Positions 6,328-56,730 of a stretch of 64,000 nucleotides of DNA are shown here, piece after piece. This stretch comes from Leptospiraceae bacterium (GTDB taxonomy: Bacteria > Spirochaetota > Leptospiria > Leptospirales > Leptospiraceae), in the NCBI GenBank assembly GCA_015075105.1, contig JABTUZ010000001.1, forward strand, positions 1,313,001-1,377,000. Reading direction: 5' to 3'. The notes below the pieces were generated by a model. That model had not been told where the DNA came from. It did not search any database and was given only the letters and a program-made list of their open reading frames with translations. A program made the translations under genes and the position numbers. Position 1 is the stretch's first letter. Every line of letters starts with the position of its first letter.

Positions 6328-6945
6328 TTATTCTATAGCTTTTAATTCCTGTCCAGTCAATAATCTTTTGAGATTTGGAATATGACGAATCAAAATAAAA
6401 ATAGAGGCAAAGACCATCGTTGAAAGAATAGAGATTTCGTCCAACTTCATTTCAAGAATATGAATTCGATTCAATAAGAAGTATGTTATAGGTAAAGTGA
6501 TCGAACCTATCACAGAGCCTACAGAAACAAACCCGGATAATTTATATCCCAAAACAAAAATAAGAGTCGTAATAAGACACGGGATTGTAGCCATAAATAA
6601 AAAAAAACCAAATGCAGTGGCAACCCCCTTGCCGCCCCTAAACAAAAGAAAAGGGCTGAATATATGACCTAAAATAGAAAGAGTCCCACACAGCAATTGA
6701 ATTTGGATTAGGTTTTCGCTTTGGTAAAATTGCGCTACAAGAAAAGGTGGAAGAGCACCTTTCATCGCATCTAAAACTAAAATCAAAACACCGAATTTCC
6801 TCCCCAAAACTCTTCCTTCATTTGTAGCTCCTGGGTTTTTGCTGCCCAATTCCCGAATGTCTTGTCCTGTATTCCATTTTACGATCCAGTACCCAAATGG
6901 AAGTGAGCCTAAAAGGAAAGAAAAAATCAAAATCAGGACGATCAT
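6328..6945 (-). CDS. plsY: Glycerol-3-phosphate acyltransferase PlsY
   Basis: PlsY transfers the acyl group from acyl-phosphate to glycerol-3-phosphate, the first step of membrane phospholipid synthesis in the inner membrane. The 205 residues form several hydrophobic helices. All three family motifs are visible: LGSLPFGYW near the N-terminus, the SKNPGATNEGRVLG loop (residues about 37-50), and LFRGGKGVATAFG (near 102). Length is typical. The start overlaps the der stop by 4 bases (ATGA). Confidence 0.95.
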   Translation of the reverse strand: MIVLILIFSFLLGSLPFGYWIVKWNTGQDIRELGSKNPGATNEGRVLGRKFGVLILVLDAMKGALPPFLVAQFYQSENLIQIQLLCGTLSILGHIFSPFLLFRGGKGVATAFGFFLFMATIPCLITTLIFVLGYKLSGFVSVGSVIGSITLPITYFLLNRIHILEMKLDEISILSTMVFASIFILIRHIPNLKRLLTGQELKAIE

Positions 6946-8300
6946 TTTTTTTCTTTTCTCCTTTTATCCTTATCTACTCTTAGTTCAATTTCCACAAAAA
7001 TTCCAGACAATCCAAATTCTTTTGAAATTTGATTTCTTAAATAAGAAATTAAATTCTCCTGAAACAGGGATTCGTCGTTTACAAAAAACAGTAGCTTAAA
7101 AGGAGACGAAGAAACTTGAGTAGAGTAATACAATCTCGGTTTCTTTTTGGACATAGCTTCAATTTTTCCGCTATGAAAAATTTTCTGAATCGTTTCGTTT
7201 AGTTTTGATGTTGAGATTTTCAAAGTTGTTTTAGAATGGAGTCTAACGCATTCAATTAGAAGTTTGTGGATTCTTTGCTTGGTTTTTGCGCTTATACTTA
7301 GAATTGGTGTATCTTTTAATGCAGGAAATCTGGAAAGCATCTTGTCCTTGTAGTCTTTTAAAGTATTGTTGGACTTCTCGGGAATCAAATCCCACTTATT
7401 GATTGCCAAAACCATCGCCTTTCCTGCTCTTCGTATATAGGAAAAAATCTTTTTATCAAATTCTCCGACTCCCTTTTCTGCGTCGATTAGATGCACTACA
7501 ATATCGGATGACTCCATTGTTTTCAATGTTCTTTGATATGAGTAAAATTCTAACTTTTCTGCACTCTTACTGGATTTGCGGATTCCGGCAGTGTCGAGGA
7601 TTTCTATTGCTTGACCGTTGAATTGAATTATAGTGTTTACCGGATCTCGAGTAGTTCCGGGAATATCGCTCACAACAGAAACGCTTTCTCCTACAATTGC
7701 ATTCAAGAGGCTCGACTTTCCAGAGTTCGGTTTTCCGACAAAGCTAATTCTGAAATCAATTTTCTCATCTTCGGAATATTTTATGTCCTTTAAGTAAAAA
7801 GAAAGCTTTTCTAAAAGAAGTTTAATATTTCTCCTGCCGAGTGCAGATATTGGGATTACCTCACTAAGCCCATACCTGTAAAATTCATCTAAATCATAAT
7901 CTTCTTCAGGGGAGTCCGATTTATTTATACAATAAATGATATTTTTGTTATGAAGTCTTTTGTCCCTTTTTAAGAGGCTAATCAGTTTGTGGTCATAGCT
8001 TGTAATTTCATTTTTGTCCATTACAAAAATAATAAGATCCGATTCTACTAATTGCTTAAAGCTGATTTCTATGATCGAAGAGGTTAGATCATTTGTGTTT
8101 TCAATGTCAAGCCCCGGTGTATCGCATAAAATAAATTCTAACTTAGGGTCTTCTTTTTTTACATGAAATCTTAAAACATCTCGAGTCACACCCGGAAAAT
8201 TGTATGTGATCGCTATGTTTTTTTTTAAGATAGAATTGAATAGTGTAGATTTACCAACGTTTTGACGGCCTACAATAGATACAAGTGGGAGTCTTTTCAA
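6942..8300 (-). CDS. der: Ribosome-assembly GTPase Der (EngA)
   Basis: Der is the double-domain GTPase needed for maturation of the 50S subunit. Two G domains are visible. The first has GRQNVGKST (near residue 11), a DTPG G3 motif and NKSD G4. The second has GKPNSGKSS (near 188), DTAG and NKWD. A KH-like C-terminal domain follows, ending in a Lys/Arg-rich tail. At 452 residues it is of typical length. It overlaps smpB upstream and plsY downstream by 4 bases each, indicating translational coupling. Confidence 0.96.
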
Positions 8301-8785
8301 TTTCGATTTCTCGCCTTTAGTGCTCTTTCTACTTCCAACTTGGCATCCTTTTTCATAAGAGTTTCTCTTTTATCGTAGTTCTTTTTAGGCTTTGCAATTG
8401 CTAACTCTATTTTAGCAAATTTATTATTTTTAAAATAGCATTTCGTAGCGACAAGAGTAAGCCCTTTTTCTTTAATTTGTTTTTCTAATTTTAATATTTC
8501 ATTTCTTTTTAAGAGTAATTTTCTTGGACGAACTTCTGGCTGTTCAGAATACCCTCTATTAAAATAGGGTGTGATATGAAAATTTTGTAGGAACACTTCA
8601 CCATTTTTAATTGTTGCAAAAGCATCGGTAAGATTAGCTTTTTTTTCGCGGAGAGATTTGACCTCAGAACCATTCAGCACGATTCCTGTCTCCACAAAGC
8701 TCAAAAGCTCAAAATTGAACCTTGCCTTTTTGTTTATGGCTGCCTCAAAGTTTTTAGTTTTCTCTTCAGTTTTCTTAGGTTTCAT
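8297..8785 (-). CDS. smpB: SsrA-binding protein SmpB
   Basis: SmpB binds tmRNA and delivers it to stalled ribosomes (trans-translation). The 162 residues contain the family features [34 protein letters not shown], a [19 protein letters not shown] stretch and the basic C-terminal tail with YDKRE and [14 protein letters not shown]. Length is normal. The start overlaps the upstream AAA/VWA gene stop by one base (TAATG) and the stop overlaps der by 4. The ssrA gene is not in the window. Confidence 0.96.
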
Positions 8786-11700
8786 TAGTTCCGTATAGAG
8801 TGGTAGGTCAGTATCAACTTTGATAGCTCTGTTCCAATTAAATTCGGCATACTTTGAAAATTTTCTGAGGTGACTTGAATAGAATGAGGAAAAATATTTT
8901 CTGCTATATAGCGGTTTCCAATCCCTACTCCCAGAAAAATATAAGACTTATTCGTATTTTTTAAAACTTCTTCTATTAATTTTTTGGACTCTCTGCTGTT
9001 TATTTCGTCTTCGAGATACATTTTCCCTCTCTGCCCTCTGAAATCAGAAATAAACACAATGATTTTAGTCTGTGCATCAGTTGAAAAAAATCTATCACAA
9101 TTTTCGATGATCCTATACTCTTCTACAGAGTCTCCCTGCCAGTCAACACAAAGTGAATTAAAAATTTCTTCTTCCTTTTTTTCGTCATAGACATCTTCAA
9201 AACTTTTCAAACGAATGAGGTCGATTGTTTCTTTTCTATTCAACCGATCCGAATAAGCGTAAATAGAAAAATCAACCTCGTGCTCGTTTAAAATATACGA
9301 GCTTGTAAGCATGGCAGAAAGTGTGGCTATGGAATACTCAAAATTAAAAATTCTTCTTGCCTTACTCACGAAGAATACTACTTCTACTCCTTTTAGTCTT
9401 TCATCACTTTTATCAATAATTGTTTTATCAAAAACCTTAGAGTCTCCTCTTCCATTTTTAAATGAAATATATTTCCTTGCGTCTATTCTTCTGCCTTGAG
9501 TTTGATAAGAACGAGAAATATCAATTTCAGGATCAAATAATTTTTCAAGATTCAATTCTGTTTCTTCCAAAGCCTTCCCGAAAACGCTTTTGAATTCAGA
9601 AAGCGAAACTAAAATAGTGTAAGACCAAAGGATTTTTCTTTTCGCTAAGAAATTTTTATACAACTCTTCAGTTCTATATCCCCATGCTCCACCTCCACCC
9701 GCTGGCTCCCCTTGACCCATGTTTCCGCGAGTGTCTTTTCCATACCATGCGTCAGGTCCCTCTTTTGTGTTTCCACCTGTTTCAGGAGTGTTGATTTCTA
9801 TTCCCTTTTTTAGAGGGCTACCTGAATTTTTCAGTTCAGCTTTTCCGGTATTTGCATCTCTTTTGTGAAGGCTTGGATCCCACCACTTTGTTTTTTCTAT
9901 TTCAGACTGAATCGTAAAAGTTTTTTTTTTATCCTCAAGTTTTTCTTTGAGGTCATCGGGTAAATTGCCGCTTGAAAGAATAGACTCCAAAATTCTTTCC
10001 GTATCGTTTCTTTCTTTAGGGTCTGAAATTTGATTTATATAAGAAATTTTTCCCCCTCTAAGGATTACTTCTTTTAAATCGTCTGATTCCCCACTAAATA
10101 GGATTAAATCCTTCCATCGAAAAAGATTGTTCAACCCAAAAATATAGGCTTGAATATTTGCAGATCCGATCACTCTTTTTGAGGATAGGTCTTTTATTTT
10201 TAGATGAAAATTTACCAAGACAGACACTAGAGAAGAATCTGGTAAATAAAACCCTAGTATCTCTGTCAAAGTATCCCGATCTTCTAAATCAGGAAATAAA
10301 ACACTCGTAAACCGATTTCTAAAAGCTCTGGAAATTGTAGGGGTAGATTTTGTTTTTCTAAAAAGTTTTAATGCGATAATTCTAGAATTTTCTTTTAAAG
10401 AAAGAGGTTTAGACTCACCACTCTCAGGTGGGAGGGTTATAGATCTTGCATCATCTGTAAGCATATTCAATTTTTCTACTAACTCGGCTCCCGCAGCTTC
10501 CAGACCTGTAATCAAAATAGTAGAGTCATTTCTGATTCCCTTAGATAGAGGACCATCTATCCAATCCACTTTTCCTGTATCTATCGGCTTCAAGGCTCCG
10601 AGTATGTCGCTTGTATGGATTCCCTTGCACAAATTTACAGTTTCATTTGAATCCCCGCAAATATTGGAAAGAAAATTCAAAAGAAAACTCGGGTCTTTTT
10701 CTTCGCTAAACTCGATTAGAAGATTTTCTTTCATGGCAAGTGCTGTAATTGCCTTTTCCAAAAAGATACCAACTTTTTCTGTCATCGGAATCTTTGATAA
10801 TAGATTTTTGACTTTTATTTCATCGTTGACCTTTAGCTTTTTATCATTGCAGTAAAGTGTAGAATTTTTGTAATCAAACTTTACGGCAGGGCAAGAAACA
10901 CTTTCTTGTAAGTCTAATTCTTTTTTGATTAGAGACTCCACATCTTCCCTATCTTCGCTTTTTCTGAATGGCTCAGAGAATATATTTGTCAACTCCCTGT
11001 ACATTACAAATTTTTCTTTGTAATCAAAGAATGTTAACCTGTTGCAGATTTTTTTTAAAGACCGTATATTAAAATGGTATTTTTCTAAGTCTCCCTTACC
11101 GAGATTTCCCAACTGGATTTTTTTCTCTGTTTCCAAAGTGATTCGAATACAAGCTTTTATAACCGATTCGTGTAAAGCAGGGTACAATTTTTTTAAAATA
11201 TAAAGAATCTCATCAGGGGAGTAAGGGTCGATATACACAACTGCAAAATTTTTTATTATATCAAAAGGTAAAGATTTTCTTCCCTCGAAACCTTCTGCCG
11301 GATTTTGAGTGCCTATAAAGTTAAACCCTTCTTTTGCAAGTTTACGAGAGTTGTCTCCTTCGATTAGGTCGAGATAAGAATTTTCATACACAGTAGAAAA
11401 TCTTTTGATTACGTCGGGTGATGCTAAATTCATCTCGTCCGCCACAAAAGAAGCGCCCGTTACAATCGAGGTAGTTAGGGGGCCGCTAATCCACTCAAAA
11501 CCGCTACCGTCCATAAGTAAACGGTAAGAGCCGATTAGGTCTTCTGGTAAGGTGTCCTCGTTAAAACTAAACCTGTAGGTTGGGTGGTTTCTTTTATAGT
11601 TTATATGATAAATAAGAGCATTCTTACCTACACCTGCATCCCCTACAAGTAGAATCGGGTAACCCTCCGACATAGGGTATAGTATATTTTTTAGATTTTT

Positions 11701-11802
11701 TATTGTAGAGTCTGTCTCTACAAGACTTGATGGAAAAACAGAAGCTGAGCTTGGAAAATCAAAGGTATTCACCTTGATTCCAGCTATGAAAACATTACCC
11801 AT
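8785..11802 (-). CDS. Midasin/CobS-CobT-like AAA-AAA-VWA protein
   Basis: A 1005-residue protein with three recognisable parts. AAA module 1 has Walker A GDAGVGKN (54-61), Walker B FVADEMN (119-125) and sensor-1 GTQNP (164-168), of the AAA_5/midasin type. AAA module 2 (about 345-560) has no Walker A where one is expected (EFSEEKDPS, near 364) but keeps the family arginine-finger block SRAFRNRF (491-498). A Gly-rich linker near 690-708 precedes a CobT/midasin-like GRRIDARKY stretch (770-778) and a VWA fold (about 806-1000). In the VWA fold the metal-site DxSxS is replaced by FVSKARR (811-817). Such ATPases remodel protein complexes; the client here is unknown. It heads the smpB-der-plsY operon. 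Confidence 0.75.
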
Positions 11803-11978: not shown

Positions 11979-12443
11979 TTATCTGGAGATACTTATTGAA
12001 TATGATGAGGAACTAAATCCATATACACCAATATTTACTGTTTCGCCAGAATATAAATAAACTGATCTATTCTCGGAGCCAGCATTACTTGATGAATAAG
12101 TATAATTGGTTTTTGTAGGGCAAGTTGTGGAGTCAACATTCATATACAGGTCTGGATCGCCGGTAGATGCAGTCAATGTAACATAGTAAGTCCCACTTGT
12201 ACTTGCAGTGTATTTATAGTATTGATAGCTACTACTTGAAACTGAACCTGAGCTAGAAGTAGCGTAAGATAGGGAGCTTGCTGAACTGCAAGAATTAGTA
12301 GAACTCGTAGAAGTACTACTTCTTGAATTTGCAAGTAGCAATAATAGAAGAGCAGAATTGTCTTCTTCCTTTTTGGTAGAGCAGTTATTCAGTAAAATAC
12401 CGAAAACCGTTAAAATGATTAGTGATGTAATTTTTTTTTGCAT
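11979..12443 (-). CDS. Ser/Thr-rich lipoprotein with PPC domain
   Basis: A 154-residue exported lipoprotein. The signal peptide ends in a spirochaete-style lipobox (LLNNC, Cys about residue 21). A low-complexity Ser/Ala/Leu linker follows, then a bacterial pre-peptidase C-terminal (PPC) beta-sandwich. PPC features seen are YYKYTASTSGTYYVTLTAS, the GDPDLYM calcium-site-like motif, and the closing VYGFSSSSYSISI strand. Attached protease domains are absent, so it is a stand-alone PPC lipoprotein, probably surface exposed. A (CA)9 tract lies 31-48 bases upstream of the ATG. The gene is monocistronic and followed by two hairpins. Confidence 0.78.
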   Translation of the reverse strand: MQKKITSLIILTVFGILLNNCSTKKEEDNSALLLLLLANSRSSTSTSSTNSCSSASSLSYATSSSGSVSSSSYQYYKYTASTSGTYYVTLTASTGDPDLYMNVDSTTCPTKTNYTYSSSNAGSENRSVYLYSGETVNIGVYGFSSSSYSISISR

Positions 12444-12532: not shown

Positions 12533-15157
12533 TCAAGACTTATTCCCAAATATCCATTTTTGCAAGGTATTTATAAGAATTACAGGCTCGAATGGTTTTG
12601 CAATATGATCGTTCATCCCTGCAGAAATACTCTTTTCCCTGTCTTCAGCCATGGCTGCCGCCGATACTGCAATGATTGGCAAGTTTTGGTTTTTTTTGTC
12701 AAGACGAATCCTTTTTGTAGCTTCTATTCCATCCATAATAGGCATCTGCACATCCATAAGTACTGCATCGTAATTATTTTTAGAAATAAGCTCTACAGCC
12801 TTTAAACCATTTTCTGCAATTTCTAAATTCAAGCCCAGTTTCTGAAATACTTTTTTTGCGATTAGCTGGTTAAGGTCGTTGTCCTCTGCGAGTAGAATCC
12901 TTGTCTTTTTCAATAATTCAATTTCATTTGAACTTTCTGAAAGCTCAGTTGCATTATCAGAATTTGAAATTTTATTTTCAGGCGAAATACTTTTTATTTT
13001 TTTTAGTCGAACAGTAAATCGGAAAGTAGTTCCTTCACCTACTACGCTTTGTACTTCAATTTCTCCTCCCATTAAATGAACGAGTTTTTTGCAAATCGCA
13101 AGACCAAGACCCGTTCCACCGTATTTCCTCGCATTGGACTCATCGGCTTGTGCAAAAGAGTTAAACAAAGTAGGCAAGAATGATTCCGGTATTCCAATTC
13201 CGGTATCTCGGACAATCACGGACAATACAAAATCATTCTCCATAAATTCTTTTACGGAAAATTGAACCTGTATTTCTCCCTTCTCCGTGAATTTTAAAGA
13301 GTTGCTGACTAAATTTTGAAGTATTTGGTTTATGTGAAGTTTATCTCCATACAAAAAATTGGGAACACCGTTTTCTACAGAAATAAAAAAATGGATTCCT
13401 TTACTTTTTGCTTTTGGAGAAAATATTCCATTCATATAAGAAATAACTTCTTCAAGCTTAAACTCTCCTTCCTCAAGAGTTTGGTACCCAGCCTCGATCT
13501 TGGAAAAGTCTAATATATTGTTTAAAATTTCAATAAGTAGAGATGACGCATTTGTGATTCGAGATAGATAGTCTTTTTGTTCTTTTGACATTTGAGTATC
13601 TTGAAGTAAATACACAAGACCCAAAATCCCATTGAGTGGTGTTCGTATTTCGTGGCTCATATTTGCCAAAAATTCGCTTTTTAACCGATTGGATTTCTCC
13701 GCTATTTTTTTTGCTTCCCTAAGCTCATTCTCGATTTGCTTTCGCTTTTCAATATTGCGAGTAATTCCGAGAACTTCAACTTCCTTATTTTCGTTAAATT
13801 GATAACGGGTTGCGGTTTCGATCCAGATCAACTCTCCATTTTTTTTGTATTGTTGCAACTCGTCATAACTGATTATTGGGTCATTGGGATATGCCAAAAA
13901 TATTGGGAGTCTTTTAGATACACTATCCTTCACTTTCTTAACGGATTCAGGTGAAAGTGAGTCTTCAAGTGATTCATTCATAGCTTCTTCTGGAGTTAGA
14001 CCTCTAAGAGAAAAAATAGACGGACTGATATACGTAAACCTATTCTCTGTTAAATTTAAAACCCAGATTACATCAGTAGAATTTTCTGCTAATAAACGAT
14101 ATTTCTTTTCGCTTTCAGATAAAGTTTTTGCTATTTTGTGTTTATCGGTTACATTTCTGACAATTACAATCACCTCGTCTAAAGCCACAGGAATAATTCT
14201 TGCCTCATACTGTTGAACTCCTAATTTTGGTATGTCCAATTCATACTCAAAAGTTTCAAGAGACTGAGTAGAAAAAACTTTTTTCATCACCTTATCTACT
14301 AAAGTGACTATATTTTGAGGCATAGTGTCTTGAAAAGATTTTCCGATAATAGAATTGGCTTGATGAAACAACTCTTTTTCGTCTGCCTTATAATCTAAAA
14401 ATACCCCTTGAGAATTGAGCCGAAACACAAGATCCGGAATAGCTTCAAGCATAGCCTGAGACCTTTTCTCTAAAATTGTATTTTCTGAAATAGAAATAAC
14501 TTCTTTAGATATATCTTCTAAAATTACTAAAGACACTTCTTCAAAATCAACGTGTCGAAAATTCGTAGTGCGACTTTTTGTCCAAAAAAGGCTTCCATCC
14601 TTTTTCAAACTCAATTCTATCTTAGAGTTCAAACCAAACTGCTTTTGCAATTCTTCTTTTTTGGCTTCTAATTCTTGACTGATTTCTTTGGGCTTGAGTA
14701 AACTCTCGTATTTTCCTATTACTTCCTTTTTTTTATAACCAAAAATACGATCCAATACGGAGTTTGTATAAACTATTTTCCCCGTATCTTTTTTTATAAG
14801 ATAAACCGCATCTGTCATGCTTTCTATAATTTGTAAGTAAAACTTCAGCCTTCTTTCCCATTTATAAAAAATATAAGTAGAGGTAAGACTAAAAATGATA
14901 AATATAAAAATAGAAAAGTAAGAACTTGGCTTTACGGAAAATGAAAACTCCGGAGGGATGAAAAAATATATCGCACCAAACGCACACACAAAAGTATTTA
15001 TAATTCCAACCCGGTATCCACCCAAGTAAGTACTTGTAAGAACAGCAGGAAAAAGTACGACCCAAGTGTAAGGAGCAATTTGCTGCCCCAAAATCCACCG
15101 TAAATACATCGCTACCCAAGGGAGTAATAAACTTATTGCAATTTGTAAATGCTTCAT
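12533..15157 (-). CDS. Hybrid sensor histidine kinase with DUF4118-type membrane domain
   Basis: An 874-residue membrane sensor. An N-terminal KdpD-like (DUF4118) block of about four helices spans residues 5-100. Three PAS domains follow (about 104-220, 235-340, 350-470), then HisKA with the phospho-acceptor His502 in NMSHEIRTPLNG. The HATPase has N-box QNLVSNSLKF, G1 DTGIGIP (651-657) and G2 GGTGLGLAI (680-688). A C-terminal receiver has LLAEDN and the acceptor Asp802 in LMDVQMPIMDG. No Hpt domain or partner response regulator is adjacent, so phosphate must leave via a distant partner. The stimulus is unknown. Confidence 0.92.
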   Translation of the reverse strand: MKHLQIAISLLLPWVAMYLRWILGQQIAPYTWVVLFPAVLTSTYLGGYRVGIINTFVCAFGAIYFFIPPEFSFSVKPSSYFSIFIFIIFSLTSTYIFYKWERRLKFYLQIIESMTDAVYLIKKDTGKIVYTNSVLDRIFGYKKKEVIGKYESLLKPKEISQELEAKKEELQKQFGLNSKIELSLKKDGSLFWTKSRTTNFRHVDFEEVSLVILEDISKEVISISENTILEKRSQAMLEAIPDLVFRLNSQGVFLDYKADEKELFHQANSIIGKSFQDTMPQNIVTLVDKVMKKVFSTQSLETFEYELDIPKLGVQQYEARIIPVALDEVIVIVRNVTDKHKIAKTLSESEKKYRLLAENSTDVIWVLNLTENRFTYISPSIFSLRGLTPEEAMNESLEDSLSPESVKKVKDSVSKRLPIFLAYPNDPIISYDELQQYKKNGELIWIETATRYQFNENKEVEVLGITRNIEKRKQIENELREAKKIAEKSNRLKSEFLANMSHEIRTPLNGILGLVYLLQDTQMSKEQKDYLSRITNASSLLIEILNNILDFSKIEAGYQTLEEGEFKLEEVISYMNGIFSPKAKSKGIHFFISVENGVPNFLYGDKLHINQILQNLVSNSLKFTEKGEIQVQFSVKEFMENDFVLSVIVRDTGIGIPESFLPTLFNSFAQADESNARKYGGTGLGLAICKKLVHLMGGEIEVQSVVGEGTTFRFTVRLKKIKSISPENKISNSDNATELSESSNEIELLKKTRILLAEDNDLNQLIAKKVFQKLGLNLEIAENGLKAVELISKNNYDAVLMDVQMPIMDGIEATKRIRLDKKNQNLPIIAVSAAAMAEDREKSISAGMNDHIAKPFEPVILINTLQKWIFGNKS

Positions 15158-52271: not shown

Positions 52272-53675
52272 CTAATACGCATTTTTACTTAACATTCCTT
52301 TCAATGGAGTGAGTAGTACAATTTTCAAATCGAATAAAAGCGACCAATTTTCAATATAGAAAATATCTGCCTCGATTCTTTCTTCAATTGAAGTATCTCC
52401 CCTAAGCCCATTTATCTGTGCCCAACCTGTTATTCCTGCTTTCACTGCGTGACGGCGCATGTATTGGGTGTGTTTTTTCTTGAACTCTTCTACATAAAAA
52501 GGTCTTTCAGGTCTTGGACCTACTACAGACATACTTCCCATGAACACATTGAAAAACTGAGGAGTTTCATCCAACGATAATTTTCTTAAAATTTGACCAA
52601 TCGGTGTGACTCTTGGATCATTTTTTGTAGTCCAAACTGTATCTGATTTTTGTTTATCTTGCACATACATAGATCGAAATTTCAACATAAAGAATTTCTT
52701 ATTATCAAGTCCCACTCTTTCTTGTCGTATAAAAATCTCTCCTTTAGATGAAAGTTTGACAAGTAGAGCAATCAAAACATAAAATGGAGAAAAGAAAAGT
52801 ATGAACATGGAAGAAAAAATAAAATCAAACGTTCTTTTGATAAATCGGTTATAACCGAGACGAATCGGAATATTTCTAATAGAGATTATAGGCAAGCCCT
52901 CAATGTCCTCTACTCTCCCCTTTGCGGTTATGAACTCCGTAAAGTCAGGAATAATTTTCAAATCCACATTTTCAAAGTCACATATTTCAATTATACTTTT
53001 TAGATACTCGCCTTCTTTTAGATTTAGCGCATAAACAAAAAGATCGGGCTTGTGCTCTTTGATAATTTTTTCGATATCCTTAACACTTCCGAGCACCTTC
53101 AGATCGACTCCCTTAGGTAGAGAAGACTTAGACCTAAGAAGTCCTTCTACCTTGTAACCATAGATATTGTGTTTTTTAATAATCTCTGCAAAACGAATGG
53201 CAGATTTCCCTGTTCCGATAATAATTACTTTTCTAAGATTGTACCCTCTTTTTCTTAAATTCTTCAGGATACCCCTCATTACTGAATGAATAAAACTCGT
53301 CACTACAATATTGATTACCGTATAATAAATGATTACAAGCCTTGAAAAACTTTCCTTTCGGAAAAAAAATAAAAGAGAAAGTATAATAAGCAGATTCAAC
53401 AAAACCCCGCTTACAATCGCTAAAAACTCATCTAAGATAGAAAGCCCTCTTCTAGGGTGATACAAATCAATAGAAATAAAAGCAGCCACTTGAGTAATCG
53501 CAAGGGTAACGCCGAGTAAAGCGTAATTAGAAATATCTATAATTCCGATATAGAAAAAAGATTCATCTTGAACAAAGTAACGTATAGCAAAAGCGATACC
53601 AAAACTAATAATAGAACTCAATAAATCAATTCCTACAAATAAAACTTTAAAAGATTGACTTCTCTCTTTTAGCAT
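52272..53675 (-). CDS. Polyprenyl glycosylphosphotransferase (WcaJ/WbaP-like)
   Basis: An inner-membrane enzyme that loads the first sugar phosphate onto undecaprenyl phosphate for exopolysaccharide or O-antigen synthesis. I place the start at the ATG 53673-53675 (467 residues), 2 bases after the lptD stop with GGAGG 8-9 bases upstream; a longer frame from 53792 would lie inside lptD. Four helices are followed by a CoA-binding-like domain (IIIGTGKSAIRFAEII) and a fifth helix. The catalytic domain has FIRQERVGLDNKKFFMLKFRSM, LDETPQFFNVFMGSMSVVGPRPE and GITGWAQINGLRG. Confidence 0.93.
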   Translation of the reverse strand: MLKERSQSFKVLFVGIDLLSSIISFGIAFAIRYFVQDESFFYIGIIDISNYALLGVTLAITQVAAFISIDLYHPRRGLSILDEFLAIVSGVLLNLLIILSLLFFFRKESFSRLVIIYYTVINIVVTSFIHSVMRGILKNLRKRGYNLRKVIIIGTGKSAIRFAEIIKKHNIYGYKVEGLLRSKSSLPKGVDLKVLGSVKDIEKIIKEHKPDLFVYALNLKEGEYLKSIIEICDFENVDLKIIPDFTEFITAKGRVEDIEGLPIISIRNIPIRLGYNRFIKRTFDFIFSSMFILFFSPFYVLIALLVKLSSKGEIFIRQERVGLDNKKFFMLKFRSMYVQDKQKSDTVWTTKNDPRVTPIGQILRKLSLDETPQFFNVFMGSMSVVGPRPERPFYVEEFKKKHTQYMRRHAVKAGITGWAQINGLRGDTSIEERIEADIFYIENWSLLFDLKIVLLTPLKGMLSKNAY

Positions 53676-53676
53676 A

Positions 53677-56600
53677 TTAATAAGCCTCCGATGTAATAGA
53701 TGATTTTTGTCCGACCTGCAAAGGTTTTTTTCTGAATCTGTAAAGCCTCGACCTTGTGGACTCTGTAGAATCTCCTTGCCCAAGGTTGACATTGATTAGA
53801 GATATTGTAAAAAATACAGATTGGTCGTAGAATATAACTTGGTTGTCAAAGGAAGAACCACCCGCAATAGATCGAAGATCCATACTGTAACCAAGTCTAT
53901 ACTCCCAATTATGCAAATTATGTTTTAACACTAACATAAATTTATTTACGTTGAACGCTGTAGTCTGCCTTCCTTGGAGTCCGTCAACTCCCATTCCGGT
54001 CAAAATATCTTTGTCAAGATTAGTTGGTTGATAAACCGTACTCATGGACTGACTATAAGTGCTTGTTCCATAAGCGTTTGTTGCAGTCATCTGATCTGTA
54101 AGTCGCCAAGGTTGGGTTACCCTCGAATCCAATTGGAGTTCAAAACCGGTATTTTTTGTAACCTGAATATCCGACTGAATATAAAATCTATACCCATCTA
54201 AGATCGGTGAGTTATACACGTGGTACCAAGTTCCTCCAATTTCCAAGTTACGAAAATTCTTTACAAACGGAAGAGAGAACCCCCCAAGCTGATAAGCGAT
54301 AGTCAAGTTATTGGAAAGCGGTCTTCCAAGTGCAGTGTGGTACACAAAATCATTGTTTACAAAAATTCCAGAATAAAAACTCCTCTGGCTTTCTAAATAG
54401 GATGCCTTTTTATTTCCGAACCCTTCAATAAAATCAAAAAACCCGGACGCTCTAAAAACAGAAAAATACCATCTCTCACGCTCCATAGGCTGAGGATTGT
54501 ATTCCGGAGAAGGAGTTCTCAAATCTCGGATTGTGCGAATCGAAAATTCAAAATCTTGAAACGCCATGCTCTCCAAAGAAATTTCTGCTTCGTGCACCCG
54601 ATTTTTACCTACTACTTTTTCCGGTAATTCCGATTTTCGAGCTTCAATTTTTCGGTAATTTACATTTAAAAATAGAACCGGTGCACCGAGTCTGAAATTA
54701 TGAGCCTGCTTTAAAAATTCATAACTTTCTCTTCTTAACACCCTGTCAAGAGCCACATCGTTTACGGAAGGATTGGGTCTTTCTGCACTTTCTTTTCTTG
54801 CACCATAATACACAGAGGGAGAAAGAGAAGCGTAACTTCCAAAATTCATTGTTGTCTTGAACCCGGTTTCTCCCAAAGTAAGAATTTGAGTACGAATGAG
54901 AGAGGCTTTGTATTGCCCGAAAGGATCATCCGTACTTCCTTCCAAGGTAGGAGTCTTGAGAGGTGTTTTCGTTACCGCACCATAATACCTTGTAAGAGAA
55001 TTATTCAAAGTAATGTCCCAATACACAGGACTATCAAAATAGGGAAGGCTCCCAATTTGAGATGAATTTTTGATTGTTGTAGTCGGAACTTGGTCTATGA
55101 TCGGAAAATAATTCGATCTTGACGATGGGGTAAGTATATTGAATATCAAATTCCTCTTTGCACTTACATTTACACTCAAGTCTCCCCTGTTTTCAGAATA
55201 GTCCATCGTCCAGCCTAAATTTTGTCTCATCATTCCAAATCTCTGATTTCTTCTATTGTATATGGCTCGAAGTGTATTCGTAGGCTCGTACCGATTTCCG
55301 TACTCGTACTCATATCTGGAGTTGTTATAATTTTCGTAGTTTATCTGAAAATTTCTAGTTCCGTCTTTTTCGTTATTATTTTTTTTTGCATTTAAAATAA
55401 ACCTCATCTTCCACCAAGGCTCGTATTGAACTCCAATATCTCTGTTAGCTATTCCTCTCGACGCAAGCTCTTGAGAATAGTATGCGTTTCCAAATCTTTC
55501 AAAAGGAGAATTTCCTTTGAAAGGGTGGTATTCACCTCTGTCCACCTGATTTGTGGTAGCTACATTCCCAAGCCCTCCTCTTCTAAACCTATCATCAAAA
55601 GCAGAGGTGATGGAATAGTTTTTATGGTTTGCATATCCAAGGTCTAAAATATAATTTAAAGACGGGCTAAGTTTCCAAGTGTCGAGAGCCGCTACCTGCC
55701 CGCTTTTTTCGTACCAATCTAACTTGGCTTTGTATCCCATAGGAATCCAACTACTCTGGGTGGCAGATGGCACAGACCATTGATAGGAGTTTTGAAAAAA
55801 CCAACCTTGGGTCATGTTATGACCGATTTGAGTCACCCAACCACTTCCAAGATTAGAAGTGTATAGCATTGGAAACCAAAAAAGTGTAGTTCCGCCTACT
55901 TGATAACGAAGATTAGTCGCAACCATAGTCTCGTCTTGATACAGGATAATTTTACCAGCTTTGAAGGTGTAGTGTGGAACTTCAGCTCCACAAGCCGTGA
56001 AGTATCCCATTTCTAATAGGTAACGCTTCTCGTCTAACTTCTTAATTTTCTTTCCTACAAAATAAGCAGGGTAATAGCTCGCCTTTGTGTCGTAAACAAC
56101 CCCTCTTTGCAATTTCACATCATAAATAAATTTATCACCCTTGATTGATATTCCGCCATCTTTAAATTCAATTCCCCCCTCTGCGTAAATTTCTTGTTTT
56201 TTAGAATCTACAAAAACCGAATTTGCAATTAGTTTTCCCTTCCCTACTTTTAATTTTACATTTCCACGTAAGATCAAAACTCCTGAGTTTGTCTTGTCAA
56301 CACTCATCAGCTCTCCCTCACTCGCATTCTCTATTACAATGGGCATTTTTTTCTCACTCGTCAATTCCGGCTCAGGCAGCTCCTTGGATTTACCTTCTTC
56401 GTCACCGCCGACTGCATCTCTCAATCTTCTTTTTTTAACATAAATAGACCCGGACACAGGAAGACCCATCTGTCTTAGGTATGTGTCGATCTCTCGGTCG
56501 CTTAACGTATCAAAAACTCGACGAATTAGCTTCTTTTGGATTTGAGTCACAGAGTAATTTTTTTCTTCATCTTTGGAATTTTTCACAAGCTCTCTCTCAT

Positions 56601-56730
56601 CCGGAAAAATCTGTCTTATAAATTCCTGATCCTGACTAAAAAGGAATTCCGGGACTAAAAAAAGTAGAAATATACAATGAAAACGAAATGTCCGCTTATA
56701 GTTTTTTCCTATTCCCAACTTTTCTAACAC
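53677..56730 (-). CDS. lptD: LPS-assembly protein LptD (OstA)
   Basis: LptD is the outer-membrane translocon that inserts lipopolysaccharide. At 1017 residues it has a signal peptide (about 15-33), a charged N-terminal extension, the OstA/LptA-like beta-jellyroll (about 120-250; LILRGNVKLKVGKGKLIAN), and a large C-terminal barrel. The family block YFTACGAEVPHYTF is followed by TTLFWFPMLYTSNLG. After the signal peptide I see only this one cysteine, so the disulfides that activate E. coli LptD cannot form. It heads a leftward run with the sugar transferase directly after it. Confidence 0.88.
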   Translation of the reverse strand: MLEKLGIGKNYKRTFRFHCIFLLFLVPEFLFSQDQEFIRQIFPDERELVKNSKDEEKNYSVTQIQKKLIRRVFDTLSDREIDTYLRQMGLPVSGSIYVKKRRLRDAVGGDEEGKSKELPEPELTSEKKMPIVIENASEGELMSVDKTNSGVLILRGNVKLKVGKGKLIANSVFVDSKKQEIYAEGGIEFKDGGISIKGDKFIYDVKLQRGVVYDTKASYYPAYFVGKKIKKLDEKRYLLEMGYFTACGAEVPHYTFKAGKIILYQDETMVATNLRYQVGGTTLFWFPMLYTSNLGSGWVTQIGHNMTQGWFFQNSYQWSVPSATQSSWIPMGYKAKLDWYEKSGQVAALDTWKLSPSLNYILDLGYANHKNYSITSAFDDRFRRGGLGNVATTNQVDRGEYHPFKGNSPFERFGNAYYSQELASRGIANRDIGVQYEPWWKMRFILNAKKNNNEKDGTRNFQINYENYNNSRYEYEYGNRYEPTNTLRAIYNRRNQRFGMMRQNLGWTMDYSENRGDLSVNVSAKRNLIFNILTPSSRSNYFPIIDQVPTTTIKNSSQIGSLPYFDSPVYWDITLNNSLTRYYGAVTKTPLKTPTLEGSTDDPFGQYKASLIRTQILTLGETGFKTTMNFGSYASLSPSVYYGARKESAERPNPSVNDVALDRVLRRESYEFLKQAHNFRLGAPVLFLNVNYRKIEARKSELPEKVVGKNRVHEAEISLESMAFQDFEFSIRTIRDLRTPSPEYNPQPMERERWYFSVFRASGFFDFIEGFGNKKASYLESQRSFYSGIFVNNDFVYHTALGRPLSNNLTIAYQLGGFSLPFVKNFRNLEIGGTWYHVYNSPILDGYRFYIQSDIQVTKNTGFELQLDSRVTQPWRLTDQMTATNAYGTSTYSQSMSTVYQPTNLDKDILTGMGVDGLQGRQTTAFNVNKFMLVLKHNLHNWEYRLGYSMDLRSIAGGSSFDNQVIFYDQSVFFTISLINVNLGQGDSTESTRSRLYRFRKKPLQVGQKSSITSEAY

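Follow-up and report, generated by a model that had tools for sequence, protein, structure and literature searches.

The window, that is, the whole stretch of 64,000 nucleotides that was analysed, carries an intact single reading frame on the minus strand (8785-11802) that starts with ATG and encodes a protein of 1005 aa. The protein is an ATPase that is conserved but uncharacterised in Leptospira-type spirochaetes, and it looks like a miniature of midasin, the giant eukaryotic ribosome-remodelling motor. The features of the gene and of its neighbours in the cluster are as follows.

8785..11802, minus strand: complete AAA-AAA-VWA protein (open frame and full-length orthologues)
10903..11739, minus strand: AAA1 with a midasin-type lid, residues 22-300 (AAA_5 E=2e-26, AAA_lid_7 E=2e-10)
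11620..11643, minus strand: AAA1 Walker A GDAGVGKN, residues 54-61, with Asn for Thr/Ser
11428..11448, minus strand: AAA1 Walker B FVADEMN, residues 119-125 (D122 and E123 invariant, 36/36)
11299..11310, minus strand: AAA1 sensor 1 TQNP, residues 165-168 (invariant, 36/36)
11245..11262, minus strand: AAA1 arginine-finger site DIIKNF, lost, residues 181-186 (Arg at the aligned position in 0/36)
11050..11076, minus strand: AAA1 sensor-2-like motif HFNxR, residues 243-251 (H243, F244, N245 and R247 invariant, 36/36)
9970..10821, minus strand: AAA2, a degenerate AAA domain, residues 328-611 (AAA_5 in 28/28 members, query E=1.7e-7)
10687..10713, minus strand: AAA2 Walker A remnant without GK[ST], residues 364-372 (by alignment; the GKT of Rea1 aligns with DPS)
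10501..10521, minus strand: AAA2 Walker B remnant, DE lost, residues 428-434 (by alignment)
10309..10335, minus strand: AAA2 arginine-finger block ISRAFRNRF, residues 490-498 (S491, A493, R495, N496, R497 and F498 invariant, 37/37)
9628..9885, minus strand: linker, residues 640-725 (among the most conserved segments; model pLDDT about 24-46 from residue 645)
9403..9522, minus strand: probable VWA finger G.R.D.R.Y...G.....FD.T, residues 761-800 (G770, R772, D774, R776, Y778, F791 and D792 invariant)
8803..9396, minus strand: VWA core, residues 803-1000 (Foldseek: NorD VWA E=3e-11, Rea1-MIDAS 4.5e-9, MDN1-MIDAS 5e-8)
9352..9366, minus strand: lost DxSxS site, SKARR, residues 813-817 (K814, R816 and R817 invariant, 33/33)
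9028..9048, minus strand: retained MIDAS element SDFRGxR, residues 919-925 (invariant, 33/33)
8297..8785, minus strand: smpB, overlapping the ATPase stop codon in TAATG (Pfam SmpB 3e-50)
6942..8300, minus strand: der (EngA), third gene of the cluster (Pfam MMR_HSR1 and EngA KH domain)

The ATPase gene is followed by smpB, der and plsY (6328-8785), with ends that overlap or abut. On its other side, a terminator-like hairpin (11964-11938) separates it from the gene of a small Ser/Thr/Tyr-rich probable lipoprotein (11979-12443), whose match to UPF0669 was sub-threshold only, and an ordinary hybrid histidine kinase with DUF4118, PAS domains, HisKA, HATPase and receiver is encoded at 12533-15157. 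Elsewhere in the window, two long same-strand ORFs (52272-53792 and 53677-56730) overlap by about 115 bases.

The domain order AAA-AAA-VWA given in a preliminary description of this DNA proved right, with AAA1 and AAA2 recognized by Pfam and the VWA domain by structure comparison. PF07728 (AAA_5) and PF17867 (AAA_lid_7) both scored above the cut-off, and the likeness to midasin was borne out by profile searches, in which Rea1/midasin reached 133 bits as compared with 62 for CbbQ, 52 for NorQ and 37 for CobS, and by the midasin-type lid itself. When AAA2 was scanned alone, AAA_5 was found in all 28 members, indicating a genuine AAA domain that has degenerated, and its sole PDB sequence match in isolation was midasin. 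The NCBIfam search returned a weak GvpN similarity only, far under the cut-off. Both Pfam and the model placed two AAA domains in each chain, not six. The full-length AlphaFold model was of moderate confidence (pLDDT 78.8, pTM 0.61), and in Foldseek its alignments with dynein and Rea1 ran to about 650 columns (TMq 0.40-0.45); as this span exceeds one AAA domain (about 290 residues), both AAA domains were matched as sequence neighbours.

Full-length orthologues (38-68% identity) were found in the class Leptospiria only, every one of them with AAA-AAA-VWA within one ORF. The gene, single-copy where present, occurred in 36 of the 48 Leptospiria genomes sampled, among which the genus Leptospira itself apparently does not figure: in 8/8 genomes of the window's own family and in most of those of the families f2 and f3. 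Two metagenome-assembled genomes (loci L069 and L073, genomes G020 and G037) had the orthologue in two pieces, in separate frames. A VWA profile matched 34/393 Spirochaetota genomes, all within Leptospiria, and the midasin lid profile matched 0/14 control genomes and, within Spirochaetota, rose above the cut-off only in this AAA-AAA-VWA protein. Scanning 84,980 species genomes with two conserved peptides as query, a search that remote relatives could escape, gave 32 loci, every one belonging to this family. The protein tree mirrored the host families, indicating that inheritance was vertical and that the gene is not mobile. Searching plasmids and phages by tblastn for a mobile or phage origin produced generic MoxR/CobS/GvpN/NorQ-like AAA matches only, and no record that spanned most of the protein. 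A conflict or defence module of the MoxR-vWA kind is very improbable: such pairs do drive several predicted conflict systems (PMC7159879), but this gene is single-copy, is inherited vertically along families and lacks variable effector neighbours. Defence-system searches gave no PADLOC match and no conflict-type neighbours. The literature on Leptospira genes yielded nothing relevant.

The order ATPase-smpB-der was also present in the five other Leptospiraceae loci whose downstream flank was covered and was missing in the sister families, where the neighbours were an aminotransferase, a hexapeptide protein, ribBA and guaA, or others; no class-wide operon partner was found, as neighbours differ between families. 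This order and the TAATG overlap would be accounted for if the protein were a bacterial analogue of midasin or VWA8 that acts with Der and SmpB in ribosome biogenesis or rescue, in line with the action of midasin on pre-60S particles (PMC6286127) and the co-migration of VWA8 with mtLSU intermediates (PMC10743472). Because the smpB-der linkage is confined to one family, and adjacency says little about a common function, we regard a ribosome-related role as a lead only and as improbable in this specific form; it concerns the client and is compatible with the mechanism favoured below.

Turning to the motifs, AAA1 had been described as keeping Walker A, Walker B and sensor 1. This holds for Walker B (FVADEMNL) and sensor 1 (TQNP), which are invariant, but not for Walker A, which reads GDAGxGKN in 34/34 orthologues, with Asn at the place of the Mg-coordinating Thr/Ser. 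The arginine-finger region of AAA1 is poor, as had been noted: it reads IIKNF, and the finger position is occupied by Y, H, N or L in the 36 sequences and never by Arg. As a control, we used 16 AAA proteins, of which three were unmatched by the regular expression; all 13 that remained, MoxR/CbbQ-type proteins nearly all from the same class, carried GK[ST] together with a downstream RF-type arginine. The motif pattern is therefore peculiar to this family, and it is ancient and subject to selection. AAA2 lacks Walker A, the Walker B acids, the sensor-1 Asn and the sensor-2 Arg. The loss of its Walker A and the retention of SRAFRNRF agreed with the preliminary description (DPS in place of GK[ST]; RNRF in 37/37), although the arginines, numbered there as Arg493, Arg496 and Arg498, are R492, R495 and R497.

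In the alignment of homologues, the losses in AAA1, AAA2 and the VWA domain were fixed class-wide, and the complementary losses held across Leptospiria at 38-47% identity; none of the orthologues aligned had the Walker A of AAA2 or the MIDAS intact, either of which had been named in advance as contrary evidence. The invariant residues comprised G59, K60, N61, D122, E123, N167 and R247 of AAA1 and R495 and R497 of AAA2. Since 200 of the 1005 positions (about 20%) were invariant or nearly so, a complementary set of this kind would rarely be all invariant by chance. With sensor 2 taken in cis, as in dynein, where one domain provides both it and the Walker motifs (PMC4047620), the elements that would serve the AAA1 pocket were kept and those that would serve the AAA2 pocket were lost. 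The AAA4 site of Rea1 takes its finger from AAA5, the next domain along (n+1; PMC6286127), which puts AAA2 on the correct side of AAA1. The correction of Walker A to GKN strengthens the case, since Torsin also carries GxxxxGKN without an arginine finger, and its finger is given by LAP1 or LULL1, AAA-like proteins without Walker motifs, in what has been proposed to be an alternating ring (PMC5628414, PMC4358337, PMC4999309). Taken together, the fixed losses, the retention of elements, the match to dynein and Rea1 domain pairs and the Torsin-LAP1 analogy support, while falling short of proving, the earlier suggestion that AAA1 and AAA2 build one working site; judged from sequence, model and analogy, a composite AAA1/AAA2 ATP site is likely.

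Against the composite site, the GKN P-loop could weaken Mg-ATP binding, as the S17N substitution does in Ras. A rival reading is that the protein is a pseudo-ATPase or a slow nucleotide-gated scaffold, a static adaptor whose AAA1 holds ADP or ATP without turnover; GKN in 34/34 and the degenerate AAA2 and MIDAS would agree with this, and ATPase activity was not detected in ChlD/BchD, likewise an AAA-VWA subunit (PMC10653834, PMC3789969). However, the catalytic Glu E123 is invariant, as are sensor 1 and the finger arginines, all of which would be needless in a non-hydrolysing domain, and Torsin, with its GKN, hydrolyses ATP once activated, the restoration of GKT having left TorsinA refolding unchanged (PMC5628414, PMC4358337). 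We therefore consider loss of turnover rather unlikely.

A further point against the composite site is the basic residue one position ahead of the lost finger of AAA1 (K in 28/36, R in 8/36), which might substitute for it. This residue, K184, might be the trans element that AAA1 would need if the AAA1 domains of six chains formed one ring and the AAA2 domains a second, inactive one, a two-tier arrangement seen as a double ring for BchI-BchD (PMC10653834) and also proposed for type II AAA proteins. Such an arrangement would leave unexplained why the AAA1 finger is Arg in 0/36 while AAA2, which has no nucleotide site of its own, keeps RNRF in 37/37; in addition, the model fits the side-by-side AAA pairs of dynein and Rea1, and no type II AAA protein was among the 50 matches listed. 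We judge it unlikely. Finally, if sensor 2 acted in trans, as the sensor-2 arginine does in BchI/ChlI (PMC10653834), the pattern of retention would fit the composite site less neatly.

The C-terminal region had no sequence-level match in Pfam or PDB profile searches, and its VWA fold is confirmed through structure comparison only, with a predicted model (AlphaFold pLDDT 74, pTM 0.66). The best Foldseek match of this model was NorD (9qh8, 270 columns), followed by Rea1-MIDAS and human MDN1-MIDAS. NorD and the MIDAS domains spanned 270-307 columns, as compared with about 205-220 for most plain integrin I/A or VWF domains; this ranking and the longer span mark the domain as a VWA of the AAA-partner type, and it probably carries a NorD-type finger. 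The loss of DxSxS reported earlier was found in 33/33 sequences, in which the site reads [N/S/A]-K-[G/A]-R-R with an invariant K-x-R-R; both remaining MIDAS elements, GD[ST] and SDFRGxR, have been retained. A metal-free VWA fits this invariant loss at the sequence level. Between AAA2 and the finger, the linker contains a segment (9679-9789, about residues 672-708) that is near-invariant class-wide, TPETGGxxKEGxDAWYGxxTxGNxGxG....GGGxWG, and predicted to be disordered. Being conserved and yet modelled with low confidence, it probably folds upon a partner, which may be the ring, the VWA face or the client, and it is thus a candidate partner-induced binding motif.

As a whole, these results are best explained, in our view with moderate confidence, by a single-chain remodelling ATPase of the MoxR/midasin type with composite sites, a ring and a VWA that docks without metal. 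AAA1, through a P-loop of the Torsin-like GKN form, would bind and hydrolyse ATP. Across the interface between the two domains, AAA2, itself unable to bind nucleotide, would contribute the arginine needed for catalysis (R497 and/or R495). We infer that a ring of six AAA domains would be closed by about three chains, with three composite ATP sites alternating with three dead ones, and that ATP cycling would move the C-terminal VWA, thereby pulling or twisting a bound client. The VWA finger probably reaches into the pore of the ring, as in midasin and in NorQD, where NorD inserts its finger into the pore of NorQ (PMC13036017). The client would be docked without a metal, the invariant Lys-x-Arg-Arg (K814/R816/R817) standing in place of DxSxS, and vWA domains without MIDAS aspartates are known in some MoxR-vWA systems (PMC7159879).

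Compared with known systems, the protein shares with midasin (Rea1/MDN1) the best sequence match of both AAA domains, the lid and a C-terminal MIDAS-type VWA with a finger, and differs in having two AAA domains instead of six, 1005 aa instead of about 4900, complementary losses, no DxSxS and a bacterial host. With TorsinA and LAP1/LULL1 it shares GKN and the absence of a finger in one unit, and a Walker-less AAA-like unit with a conserved finger arginine, whereas here both units lie in one chain, with a VWA attached. Its AAA domains are closest to midasin and CbbQ/NorQ and outside the HSP100/ClpB-related lineage, so the likeness to Torsin-LAP1 is one of convergence and not of membership. That the Torsin-LAP1 solution evolved independently in a bacterial midasin-type chain, with an obligate alternating three-site ring driving a metal-free VWA whose Lys-x-Arg-Arg takes over from the MIDAS ion, is a possible but more doubtful extension of the mechanism; on that reading, no simpler relative of midasin would be known.

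NorQ-NorD, RavA-ViaA, CbbQO and CobS-CobT likewise combine AAA and VWA in one working unit, and NorD is the best match of the VWA model, but these pairs are encoded by two genes, their rings are built of single-AAA subunits, and the MIDAS of NorD is intact. In Mg-chelatase, an active AAA (I) is accompanied by D, an AAA without detected ATPase activity followed by a linker and a VWA; unlike here, I and D are separate subunits, and the D MIDAS has been described as essential. VWA8 is mitochondrial and larger than the 1005-aa spirochaete protein. Its architecture, with a pair of dynein-related AAA domains ahead of a C-terminal VWA (PMC10743472), resembles the present order, a likeness drawn from that description and not from sequence. 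The preliminary description had called the architecture undescribed; this stands for bacteria as far as searched, but not in general, as mitochondrial VWA8 was reported as AAA-AAA-VWA in the same study, which places bacterial AAA and VWA domains in different proteins (PMC10743472).

The finding is real, conserved and mechanistically suggestive, and its known kind is that of the midasin and MoxR-VWA machines. With it, an architecture stated to be split over two proteins in prokaryotes (PMC10743472) gains a bacterial representative. If the proposed mechanism is true, a GKN P-loop combined with a finger from a dead AAA neighbour would have arisen twice, in Torsin-LAP1 and in the spirochaete protein, pointing to a functional link between an Asn P-loop and an externally supplied finger that is hard to settle on Torsin alone. 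As a compact three-domain soluble protein, it would also be a tractable model for midasin-type rings that drive a VWA arm and for metal-free client binding by a VWA domain.
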